This document shows positions 8,053 to 18,163 of a DNA stretch of 64,000 bases, piece after piece. Made by a program: the position numbers and the translations under genes. The stretch is from Anas platyrhynchos (Eukaryota > Chordata > Aves > Anseriformes > Anatidae). Within the stretch, counting starts at the first letter, position 1. Each line of letters opens with the position of its first letter. The DNA lies in assembly GCF_047663525.1 (NCBI RefSeq), contig NC_092607.1, forward strand, positions 4,435,001 through 4,499,000, read 5' to 3'. The notes beneath the pieces were generated by a model, which did no database searches, had not been told where the DNA came from, and worked only from the letters and a program-made list of their open reading frames with translations.

Positions 8053-11000
8053 TCAGGTGTACATCATTTCTGCCATGTGAGACATTTTCTTTGGAATATA
8101 CAAGTAATACTCCATGTATCCCGAAAGATCTTCAATAGTCACATCATCCACAAAGACCCTGGCTTGCTCAGAGCAAGAGCGTGGAGAACTTGATGGAGTT
8201 CTTGATGGCAAAGGTTGAGAGTGATCCTCAGCAACTGTTATTCTATCAGGTGCCAATGGGAAAGCGTTCTGCAAGCCAGAGAATTTGTACACTTCCATAT
8301 CTTGCCATCGTTTACACTGACAGGCTTTATCTGCACAGGCACATGGCTTATTCTTGTTCAGCTTGGACACAGATTGAAAGTCAGAGAGCTGCGTAGTCTC
8401 TGGGCCTGCTTTGGATTCTAGAGACATGGCGGTGGGAGAGTTTTCCTGTTTGTTCTCTGATGTAGACTGCAAAACAGAAGTTCCCGAACAATCAACATCT
8501 CCCTTCTGGCCAACATCTGGAGCAATACAGCATCGTTCATGTGCACAAGTTTCCTTTGGGATTGGCATCCCAAACCCTGTGCCGTCATCTGGGGCATCAA
8601 TCTGGCTCTTGTGCACTACTTGGCTGCACGTGGAATGTGATTTTGTGCTGCAATGGACAAACTTTGGAGGATGAAGAATTGGGGATTTGGAACGCCTGCG
8701 ACGCTGGGTTCTCACAACTCCTCTTGAAGGCTTCTTCACAGGCCTACCATGGAAAGATAAAAAAAAAGTGGGTGAAGTTTCACTAAAAGACTAGTTGGAT
8801 TATAGGCAACATCAGGCAAGATGCCTAGTGTGGCATGCAAGAGCTTTAACATCAGAGTATTTGGCTCATGGTATTCCACTGTCTTAGAATTTGACATTGT
8901 TTTAGTCAAGCACCACTATAAAATATGAAAGAAACACCTGGAAATAAAACCTGAAGTGCTTGTCTTAAGGATTTCATAATGAGTAAAGCATGGGAGACAA
9001 ATAACCTCCAAGAGAAGGACAAAGCACAAGATGACAGCACAAAACCAATGACTCAAGGCAAGAGAATAGTTTTGTTTCAGTAGATGTGTCAAGTTCTGCA
9101 TAGACATTCAAGAAACAAATTCTTTAATCTAGTTCCCAAGGCATACCGACACCTGCAATGTTGAATGGTTACTGCAAGAGATTGCCTGAAAAACAGCACT
9201 TCATATTTATATTAAGAAACATCTATAATGTTTATGTACCCAAAGCTGAGCAGCATTTCCTTGCACTTCATATAATTGTGCATAAGAACAGTAGTCACAT
9301 ATGACATGAAAAAGGTAGTGCGGAATATTTTTAAATAGTGTTTTTAATGAAATAAATGTGGGTCCCTTCTTTAGGGGCCCAGTTACTGGAAAACTTGCCT
9401 ATTTAAATTTCACTTCCAATGCAATCACATTTGAAGTAGTCTGACAATCCTTAGATTCTCTTACCCATGCCAGGTTTCCTTAGAAGTACACACATTCTTA
9501 GGCTTGTTTTCATCTGCTGCTGTTCTAACTACTGCTCTTGGACTTGTCCCCTCACCAACAGGAAGAGAAGCAGTAGATCTGTGAAAAAGAGAATGAAAAC
9601 ATAACAGCCTAGATTGGTTCATACTATAAATATGAAAAAGCTTATGAAACTTCTTTTCCAGAAGACTACTCCAAATCATTTATGATGTCTTAAAAAACCT
9701 GCCCACAAAGATGACCCAAGTCTGACGCATTCCTATGCCAAAAGTTTGTATAACAAGCTTTCGCTGAAGGTGGCGTCATACAGCAAACCAAACAGACTGC
9801 AACTCCAAACTCCACACCTCGGTGATGAAGCACACAAAATAGCTAAATATCAGAGGGGGGGGAAAAACACTGCTGAAGAAATGTGCCTCTTTTTCCATAG
9901 ACAAATAAGCTATTCTTTCCTAAAAATAAATGTTCTTTGGACATAAATAGACTTTGTTTATCTGAAGAACACTCATGTCTTTGTCTAGGATGATGTAAAC
10001 TAAAGCTTTTCATACTACTGCAAGTTCTATCACTTCAGCAACAGAATCGTGACAGATTTTCAACTTCTATTCAAGCTAGGGATCATTTAAAAAAAATTTA
10101 CTAGTTTTCCTGGTGCTATAAAACCATTCCAAACCACCATTTTCAATGAGCTATAAGAATACCCGGAATCATTTTGCCATGTTGTGCTTTTATATATTAA
10201 GCTGGCATTGACAAGGAAATTATTTTCCAAATTCTTTTTCTTAAATTGTTTTTTTAAGCAGGGCTGATCCCCTGAAAAGTGAAAATAAGTCTTTGCACGC
10301 CGTTGTAGGATGGCATTAACTGACATTTAAGAGACTATCCTATCAGTCAAGCACCTGCTATTTTCCATTTAACAAACATCAACGCAGTAGTAAATTGAAG
10401 GTCGACAGTAAAAACTACCATAACTAAAGTATGCCTGACTTGGGGGGGGACTGAGGATACCGAAGTATCGAGAGGCACTTGGGTGGTGATAGATTCCTAA
10501 TGAGCTTAATTACTTAAATGAAAGATAATTTTAGAAGGCCCTCTACTTGCCATTTAGCTTCTAAAGTAATTCCAATTACCAACTTGATACTTGCATACTG
10601 CCTTACTTACACTTTTGTTTCCATCACCAGCATAACTGCATCACTGCCAATAGCTTACTGAAATTCAGTACTCTATTAATATACAGTATTAATATAATAT
10701 ATAATATTAATATATATATTAATAAATATGTAATCACACCCATTTGTCAGCAGAAAAAAAAAGCATTATATAGAAGCCATCTGTTCATTTTAGATAAAAA
10801 ATGATTGTCTCTCACAGAAGACACACTCTGCTCGTGTTCTTCTTTCTGGGACAGTCAGGGTTAAGTGCCACATCTGAGATCTCCCATGAAACAAGACTAC
10901 ACAAAAAGCATTCCTTCCCATTTAGCGTTTTGGTTATAAACAGAAAATTTGTGAGTAACATCAATGAAAATAGTTTGAGTGGGAATCATGCATTGCAGAT

Positions 11001-11497
11001 AGTGCCCTCCTTTACTGATATGGAAAGAATATTTCTCTCCTGGGAAAAGACTGGAGTTTATTCTCATGACAGGCCTTTAAAGCCATAGTAGTAAGCTAAC
11101 TTCGAGTACAGCTCCAGTGCTATGGATATGACCTCTGGCAGCCAGATTCATGCCAAAATTCATTTAAAATGTGCTGTCAGTTGCTCCTTATTATTAGGTA
11201 TGTTTCAAGCCTGTTGGGACCTAATAGTGATTGAACAAATCACAATTCCTTGAGAAGTGCAGTCTACAGCTAGTGAATTTATTTCCATTTAACTTGAATG
11301 AAGGCTGTCAGTGCCTAACCTTTTGGAATTACCTCCTTCCTTCAGATTGAGCACAGAGGGTGTTCCCTTCCAGTCCATTTGTAATATGTTAACTCTGTAC
11401 CTCCCTGTGTTGTTACTTACCCAGCTGCGTCAACTCTTAGCTTTTTGAACGCTGTCTGCAGGCTTTCCTCTTCTCCATCCTTAGCTTCTGTTTTCAT
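8053..11497 (-). CDS. OSER1: Oxidative stress-responsive serine-rich protein 1
   Basis: OSER1 (formerly C20orf111, DUF776 family) is a small serine-rich protein induced by oxidative stress and linked to FOXO signalling; its biochemical activity is unknown. Three coding exons are seen: 11497-11421, 9578-9465 and 8743-8053. Both introns are in phase 2 with GT-AG ends, and the joined frame is 293 codons (human 292). The N-terminus [20 protein letters not shown] differs from human at one position. Other family marks are the [11 protein letters not shown] basic block opening exon 3, the C-x-C..C-x-C cluster ([13 protein letters not shown]) and the invariant C-terminal block ending [10 protein letters not shown]. 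An acceptor-like CTTTTAG about 40 bases before the ATG suggests an upstream non-coding exon. A 16-codon upstream frame overlaps the start. This copy is clearly the orthologue of human OSER1, judged by sequence and by its place beside JPH2. Confidence 0.95.
8744..9464 (-). other. OSER1: OSER1 intron 2
   Basis: A 721-base AT-rich intron with GTAAGA donor and TAG acceptor. No other feature is visible. The matching intron in the plus-strand paralog is 698 bases. Confidence 0.8.
9579..11420 (-). other. OSER1: OSER1 intron 1
   Basis: An 1842-base AT-rich intron (GTAAGT donor, TTTTTCACAG acceptor). It includes a self-complementary TATTAATATA-type stretch at about 10674-10728. No exon or recognisable transposon was found. 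The matching paralog intron is 1681 bases. Confidence 0.8.
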
Positions 11498-18000: not shown

Positions 18001-18163
18001 GTCCCCGTGTGGAGCGGCCGCATCGGGTTCTCCCAGGTCGTGTTCTGAGCAAGCTCGAGCCTTTGTGGATGATGTGACTATTGAAGATCTTTCAGGCTAC
18101 ATGGAATACTACTTATATATTCCTAAGAAGATGTCCCACATGGCAGAAATGATGTACACTTGA
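14909..18163 (+). CDS. OSER1-like protein (second, divergent OSER1 gene)
   Basis: This is a full second member of the OSER1/DUF776 family. Three exons (14909-14979, 16661-16771, 17470-18163) join into an open frame of 291 codons. Splice sites are GT-AG, and both introns are in phase 2 at the same codons as in OSER1. The protein begins MAAKEEEEESLQLAFKKL and keeps LRVDAAG. Exon 2 reads ...LSVGDGT...SKEAWHG. Exon 3 opens with the [15 protein letters not shown] block, keeps the CPCTDKKCQC cysteine cluster and ends in a block identical to OSER1 over its last 33 residues. The middle of exon 3 is freely diverged. Retained introns exclude a retrocopy, and intact frames with synonymous-only change at the C-terminus argue for a working gene. 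The role is presumably like OSER1, but this is inference. I do not recognise an established symbol. A human coding counterpart at this place is not known to me. Confidence 0.88.
14980..16660 (+). other. OSER1-like intron 1
   Basis: A 1681-base intron (GTGAGT donor, TTTACTTAG acceptor). The first few hundred bases belong to the CpG island and the rest is AT-rich. No further feature was seen. Confidence 0.75.
16772..17469 (+). other. OSER1-like intron 2
   Basis: A 698-base intron (GTAAAA donor, ACCCCACAG acceptor). It contains an AAAAAAAT-type simple repeat near 16942-16970 and an A-run near 17333-17354. Confidence 0.75.

Follow-up and report, generated by a model that had tools for sequence, protein, structure and literature searches.

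A stretch of 64,000 nucleotides from the duck Anas platyrhynchos (NCBI RefSeq assembly GCF_047663525.1, contig NC_092607.1, positions 4,435,001 to 4,499,000 of the forward strand; the window hereafter, within which all coordinates are given) contains two OSER1-family genes pointing away from each other, a minus-strand copy that groups with mammalian OSER1 and a plus-strand copy here called OSER1L. Comparison with other vertebrate proteins indicates that the two are very probably conserved paralogues that go back at least to the amniote stem. Mammals and reptiles split more than 300 million years ago. The account that we favour, and consider quite probable as a whole, is that an inverted duplication of OSER1 before the mammal-sauropsid split gave rise to the head-to-head pair and that both copies were kept in sauropsids, while in mammals the minus copy would have continued as the single OSER1 lineage and the plus copy would have been lost. 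The coding exons of the gene models, as rebuilt here, are as follows.

11421..11497, minus strand: coding exon 1 of OSER1 (minus copy)
9465..9578, minus strand: coding exon 2 of OSER1, 114 nucleotides, a multiple of three
8053..8743, minus strand: coding exon 3 of OSER1 with the stop codon; AATAAA at 7955
14909..14979, plus strand: coding exon 1 of OSER1L (plus copy); in-frame stop upstream at 14774
16661..16771, plus strand: coding exon 2 of OSER1L, 111 nucleotides, a multiple of three
17470..18163, plus strand: coding exon 3 of OSER1L with the stop codon, encoding CxCx4CxC, LRSVLSECEKA and the C-terminal tail; AATAAA at 18292

The minus copy encodes 293 amino acids before its stop codon and has introns of 1842 and 721 nucleotides, and the plus copy encodes 291 amino acids and has introns of 1681 and 698 nucleotides. 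Both frames are open, the splice sites are GT-AG in both copies, and intron positions and phases match between them. The start codons lie 3412 bases apart. A first-pass annotation of the same DNA, made from the letters alone, had described two complete and divergent genes of three coding exons each with these frame lengths, identical intron phases, similar introns and start codons 3.4 kb apart, and the rebuilt models together with the Pfam family PF05604 bear this description out; the transcription starts are likely closer still. PF05604 matches the plus copy over residues 3-173 (E = 4.4e-54, 183.9 bits) and the minus copy over residues 1-173 (E = 5.9e-69, 232.4 bits), the cut-off being 25. 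The four cysteines of a CxCx4CxC motif and most of the C-terminal tail are invariant in all 43 aligned family proteins, which were drawn from outside the window, and the two window copies separately show both. The CxCx4CxC motif, which may bind metal, lies in coding exon 3 of both copies, outside the stretch matched by Pfam.

The two duck proteins are about 52% identical, so that an assembly duplicate or a pair of alleles is ruled out, and a retrocopy is ruled out by the two coding introns kept in each copy. Three inverted matches pair corresponding parts of the genes, all at coding exons (144 nucleotides at 86%, 72 at 76% and 24 at 88%); the scan gave 34 matches, the 25 longest of which were listed, and the remainder of those listed were simple-sequence or short. 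Close to the 3′ ends, another short match (7930-7949 and 18258-18277) is attributed to chance, as it lies on opposite sides of the respective poly(A) signals. Synonymous sites of the duck pair are near saturation, with proportions of synonymous (pS) and nonsynonymous (pN) differences of 0.738 and 0.307. Over the last 42 codons pS is 0.63 and pN 0.02, and the near-identity of the tail is thus due to selection on the protein and not to gene conversion. Nor is there any excess of identity within species: across 20 sauropsids the paralogues are 49.5-60.0% identical within a species and 54.3% on average across species, which argues against homogenisation.

Orthologues of the plus copy were found well beyond ducks. 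Protein searches were made with the plus copy (best 120 of 686 matches), a coelacanth protein (best 120 of 669) and a turtle OSER1 (best 120 of 643), the listings naming one member per cluster; the latter two queries added outgroups and further minus-type orthologues. Among the matches listed, plus-type orthologues at 57-98% identity are present in birds, Gavialis, turtles, Sphenodon and lizards, the closest being a mandarin duck (Aix) record at 98%. Further down, at 50-55%, the plus protein is matched mainly by proteins of mammals, amphibians and fish and by the sauropsid minus type. In the careful tree described below, the minus protein is separated from an Anas record by almost no branch length. 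In all 18 species with both copies and a length given, the two copies come from source sequences of equal length, the shortest being 17,935 bp (Urocolius), and they are taken to lie on the same contig and hence to be linked. The divergent orientation itself is an observation on this duck window. The 120 listed plus-copy matches name no OSER1L from chicken, quail or snakes, no squamate minus-type OSER1 is named in the best-120 listings, and the guinea fowl (Numida) OSER1L, P0032, is unusually diverged, with 75% identity to duck and an end branch of 0.2. By these signs OSER1L may evolve rapidly in some lineages or have disappeared from them.

The plus-type database records are automatic predictions, many of them under the name 'OSER1-like', and such predicted proteins of birds, turtles, a crocodilian and lizards represent the same gene as the plus copy. 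Three lizard records, Pogona P0047, Anolis P0049 and Varanus P0050, are named plain OSER1 although they fall in the OSER1L clade, so that orthology by name is misleading in squamates. The parts available of the OSER1 literature that was found, chicken work included, describe no second OSER1 gene; in the same material the name 'OSER1-like' is absent and 'OSER1L' occurs solely in a rice paper. The proposal that the second gene was undescribed thus stands as far as these publications go and fails for the databases, where automatic predictions of it were already present. The gene is a conserved second member of a known family.

The two types are distinguished by a diagnostic motif, which reads LRxxxSECE in OSER1L, as in fish, coelacanth and most amphibians, and resembles LQNxxPLAPE in mammalian and sauropsid OSER1. 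When 254 proteins were classified by strict pattern, 95 had SECE (86 of them also KF[TS]Y), 151 had LQ..APE and/or KF[VI]H, two had KF[TS]Y only and six had neither, and marks of both types occurred together in none of the 254. The SECE class included none of the 29 named mammalian proteins among the matches listed, monotremes included. It was found in 6 of 10 named amphibian proteins, LQ..APE being found in 0 of 10, and also in named sharks, bony fish and coelacanth. SECE is therefore the older form and human-type OSER1 is derived at the motif. That derived status is limited to the motif, since all three groups lie at almost the same path length from fish and sharks (1.411 for the plus type, 1.426 for sauropsid OSER1 and 1.424 for mammals).

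A search of the protein against vertebrates and a family tree had been proposed in the first-pass annotation, and here the trees placed the two copies in separate clades. A quick tree was built from 77 rows (75 of 173 proteins and the two window proteins) and rooted on six sharks, and a careful tree from 68 rows (66 of 254 proteins and the two window proteins) with no chosen outgroup root. Between the two, 14 rows of the first set were dropped, some for long branches and others for thinning, namely OSER1L of Numida, Rhagologus, Piaya, Melanerpes and Lerista, OSER1 of Phaetusa, Podargus and Apaloderma, and the rows of Octodon, Eptesicus, Rhinoderma, Myxocyprinus, Coregonus and Hemiscyllium; five OSER1 rows were added. 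In the careful tree OSER1L forms a clade with support 100/100 (22 rows, including the window plus copy), outside the clade of mammalian OSER1, and mammalian OSER1 (8 rows) and the sauropsid minus type (17 rows, including the window copy) form one clade with support 100/99. Sharks and ray-finned fish stand at the far side of this unrooted tree. The same two clades were obtained at 100 and 99 in the shark-rooted quick tree. Site patterns over the 77 rows, scored with thresholds of 75% internal agreement for every amniote group and 60% for the outgroups, point the same way, as five columns set mammals and sauropsid OSER1 against OSER1L and the outgroups, none joins the two sauropsid copies and one joins OSER1L with mammals. 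Four columns are derived alike in all amniote copies.

Placement was further examined by approximately unbiased (AU) tests, chosen after viewing a tree, with three hypotheses per row set and a fourth that needed no test. In the careful tree, forcing the sauropsid copies together lowered the log-likelihood by 33.5 and was rejected (p = 0.019), placing all amniote copies in one clade lowered it by 1.8 and was kept (p = 0.41), and a union of the plus type with amphibians lowered it by 10.6 and was rejected (p = 0.025). In the quick tree the latter two hypotheses gave p = 0.563 and p = 0.344. The first-pass annotation had wavered between a duplication that was old and lost in mammals and one specific to this lineage. 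The old duplication is upheld by the sauropsid orthologues, the joint clade of mammalian and sauropsid OSER1, the AU rejection in the careful tree and the 5:0:1 division of sites, and a lineage-specific one is ruled out by the orthologues across sauropsids and the tree. Our best reading of these comparisons is a duplication on the amniote stem or earlier, before mammals and sauropsids separated, with the plus type apparently lost in mammals.

Several observations weigh against this reading or parts of it. The mammalian absence of OSER1L rests on the best 120 of 686, 669 and 643 matches. The quick tree keeps a duplication confined to sauropsids (26.8 lower, AU p = 0.105), and the careful tree places the amphibians (8 rows) without support (55/17). 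Of 105 bird pairs, 79 show a slightly lower conservation of OSER1L than of OSER1. None of the five unnamed assembled plus-type sequences examined (P0037, P0039, P0053, P0069 and P0108) spans the coding-exon junctions, whereas at least one unnamed assembled minus-type sequence is full length (P0116), and OSER1L expression may for this reason be lower than that of OSER1.

The quick-tree result would fit a duplication in sauropsids only, OSER1 having come to appear nearer to mammals through faster evolution of OSER1L, a history that would also explain the lack of mammalian OSER1L among the matches listed without any loss. The rejection of this history does hinge on which rows were chosen and on the greater thoroughness of the careful tree search. 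Even so we consider it quite improbable, given its rejection in the careful tree and the absence of any site joining the sauropsid copies against five joining mammals and sauropsid OSER1. OSER1L has moreover not evolved faster, its path length of 1.411 being near-equal to the others, and it retains the largest share of 121 outgroup-conserved columns, with 90.7% for the plus type, 84.5% for sauropsid OSER1 and 87.9% for mammals (90.8%, 86.6% and 89.0% with gaps set aside). The rows with the lowest retention are Paroedura for the plus type and an incomplete Sphenodon record for OSER1.

As the amphibians are placed without support, the duplication may instead predate tetrapods, with OSER1L lost in amphibians and separately in mammals, which we hold to be somewhat unlikely. 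In both trees the amphibians attach to the OSER1 clade and not below all amniote copies, with 55/17 in the careful tree and a support of 29 in the quick tree, and their union with OSER1L is rejected in the careful tree and not in the quick one. This support is very weak, and a single amniote clade is kept in the careful tree and has a slightly higher likelihood in the quick tree. The motif counts likewise oppose so early a date, the LQ..APE form being absent from the named amphibian proteins and SECE present in most of them. We still prefer a duplication that preceded the separation of mammals and sauropsids.

It is most improbable that the plus copy is a pseudogene, silent or in decay, whose frame is open by chance in this duck, although the diverged guinea fowl orthologue suggests that some lineages may be losing OSER1L. 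Full-length proteins with the same parts occur among the matches listed across birds and reptiles. OSER1L and OSER1 have mean pairwise identities of 80.8% and 82.7% in 15 birds that have both copies and of 76.8% and 77.9% in 20 sauropsids. Because of this near-equal conservation among birds both copies look like working genes, and together with the open frames it sustains the earlier description of both as intact. The residues invariant in the family are common to the two types. Several database isoforms also exist, including turtle records P0042 and P0045, which skip exon 2 and stay in frame, that exon being a multiple of three in both copies, and zebra finch record P0041, which has an alternative 5′ end. 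Isoform variants of this kind in automatic annotation are normally built from RNA reads, and these records hint at transcription of OSER1L. Judged by its conservation, OSER1L has been retained as a second gene, with about the same constraint as OSER1, in birds, a crocodilian, turtles and tuatara, and it is also present in lizards.

The region between the two genes holds a candidate bidirectional promoter, with the following features.

14000..15200, strand not assigned: CpG island over both 5′ ends, GC 0.62-0.86 and CpG observed/expected 0.59-1.14 in 200-base bins
14351..14500, minus strand: candidate untranslated exon 1 of OSER1, predicted from sequence, with its 3′ end at 14351 and donor GGCGGGCAG/GTACGG
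14883..14908, plus strand: candidate 5′ untranslated region within coding exon 1 of OSER1L, predicted after the acceptor-like TGTGTGTTGTAG at 14871-14882

For the minus gene a plausible donor at 14351/14350 could be joined to candidate acceptors after which the next exon would start at 11537 or 11515, and the gene would thus probably begin with an untranslated exon inside the CpG island that also covers the plus-gene 5′ end. The acceptor-like sequence before coding exon 1 of the plus copy suggests a further untranslated exon upstream. Transcription of the two genes, with starts deduced from splice signals and not from transcripts, likely begins only a few hundred bases apart. As one CpG island (14000-15200) spans both 5′ ends of this opposite-strand pair, a bidirectional promoter shared by OSER1 and OSER1L appears the likelier arrangement, and such a promoter driving both genes could keep the pair linked and co-expressed. 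As to FOXO-type motifs, 14000-15000 has no GTAAACA and one weaker RTAAAYA (at 14287), against five and 42 in the whole window. NRF1-like sites with at most two mismatches were no commoner than chance (13 found, 11.85 expected). An upstream ATG at 14893, 16 bases 5′ of the plus-copy start and out of frame with it, is possibly a translational control element of that copy.

The two types have in common, as invariant parts, the basic stretch RRRRSKSP, CxCx4CxC, much of the N-terminal LQxAFKKL stretch and the greater part of the last 40 residues, and they differ in a middle segment and in the SECE region. For a plus-type protein (P0003) and an OSER1-type protein (P0070), AlphaFold gave models with a mean predicted local distance difference test (pLDDT) of 47.1 and 46.4 and a predicted template modelling score of 0.12. 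Confidence is low throughout, as expected of disordered proteins. In the P0003 model residues 216-233, spanning the SECE motif, form a helix that has no counterpart there in the P0070 model, which at a pLDDT near 50 is a lead only, and no solved structure matched the OSER1-family profile at E up to 1. Both proteins would be largely disordered stress-response regulators. The likeliest outcome for the pair would be one common activity with differing regulation or partners, and a functional division between OSER1 and OSER1L can be put forward tentatively, its probability being below even.

OSER1 (also C20orf111 or Perit1) shares PF05604, the C-terminal tail and the CxCx4CxC motif with both copies; the minus copy groups with the mammalian gene, and the plus copy, about 52% identical, is a paralogue with the older-type LRxxxSECE. 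COL4A1 and COL4A2 are head-to-head paralogues around a common promoter, both retained in mammals. Like them, the OSER1 pair consists of inverted paralogues facing outward, with putative promoter sharing; unlike them, one member, OSER1L, was not seen among the mammalian proteins listed. The gene slc26a12 is likewise a neighbouring paralogue retained in non-mammals, but it belongs to another family, is in tandem rather than inverted, and is present in amphibians. If the history proposed here is true, the pair would be a clear case of inverted duplicates that remained linked in sauropsids for more than 300 million years and were broken up in mammals.

A divergent noncoding transcript, OSER1-DT (OSER1-AS1), presumably starts, as its name implies, from the OSER1 promoter in the opposite direction. 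Human OSER1 could be the derived member of the pair, mammals having lost the SECE copy, and OSER1-DT is then a candidate remnant of the lost transcription unit, a proposal that we rate as doubtful. Were it true, OSER1-DT would be a long noncoding RNA (lncRNA) born through paralogue loss. In the part available of a survey of lncRNAs derived from lost coding genes, candidates were chosen by presence or absence in Ensembl Compara, and its Discussion treats duplication followed by pseudogenization as a related route that is much harder to quantify (PMC5577775). OSER1 is unmentioned in the main text of that survey, as far as this was available.

OSER1 is described as a conserved FOXO target raising stress resistance and lifespan (as cited in PMC13404206), its translation is reduced in Mettl5-knockout mouse cells (PMC13232014) and its expression is lower in broiler gut after amoxicillin (PMC5390468), according to the portions of these papers that were available. 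If the two genes are as proposed, studies in chicken, duck, turtle and lizard must tell the copies apart. Cross-species comparisons treating OSER1 as a single gene may mix paralogues, the Anolis, Pogona and Varanus records being examples.

A CR1-like fragment at 12876-13780 falls in the predicted OSER1 intron before its first coding exon. Open reading frame fragments there and at 47236-47649 resemble what we take to be the reverse transcriptase of CR1, a long interspersed nuclear element, and the open reading frame at 12669-13043 in this region had no Pfam match. The pair is flanked by a MORN-repeat exon at 4665-5345 (minus strand), which we take to be JPH2, an exon at 32498-32893 (plus strand) with weak glutathione S-transferase C-terminal matches, presumably GDAP1L1, and a FIT-domain gene at 43649-44368 (minus strand), presumably FITM2. 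The resulting presumptive duck order of JPH2, the OSER1 pair, GDAP1L1 and FITM2 agrees with the human order around OSER1.

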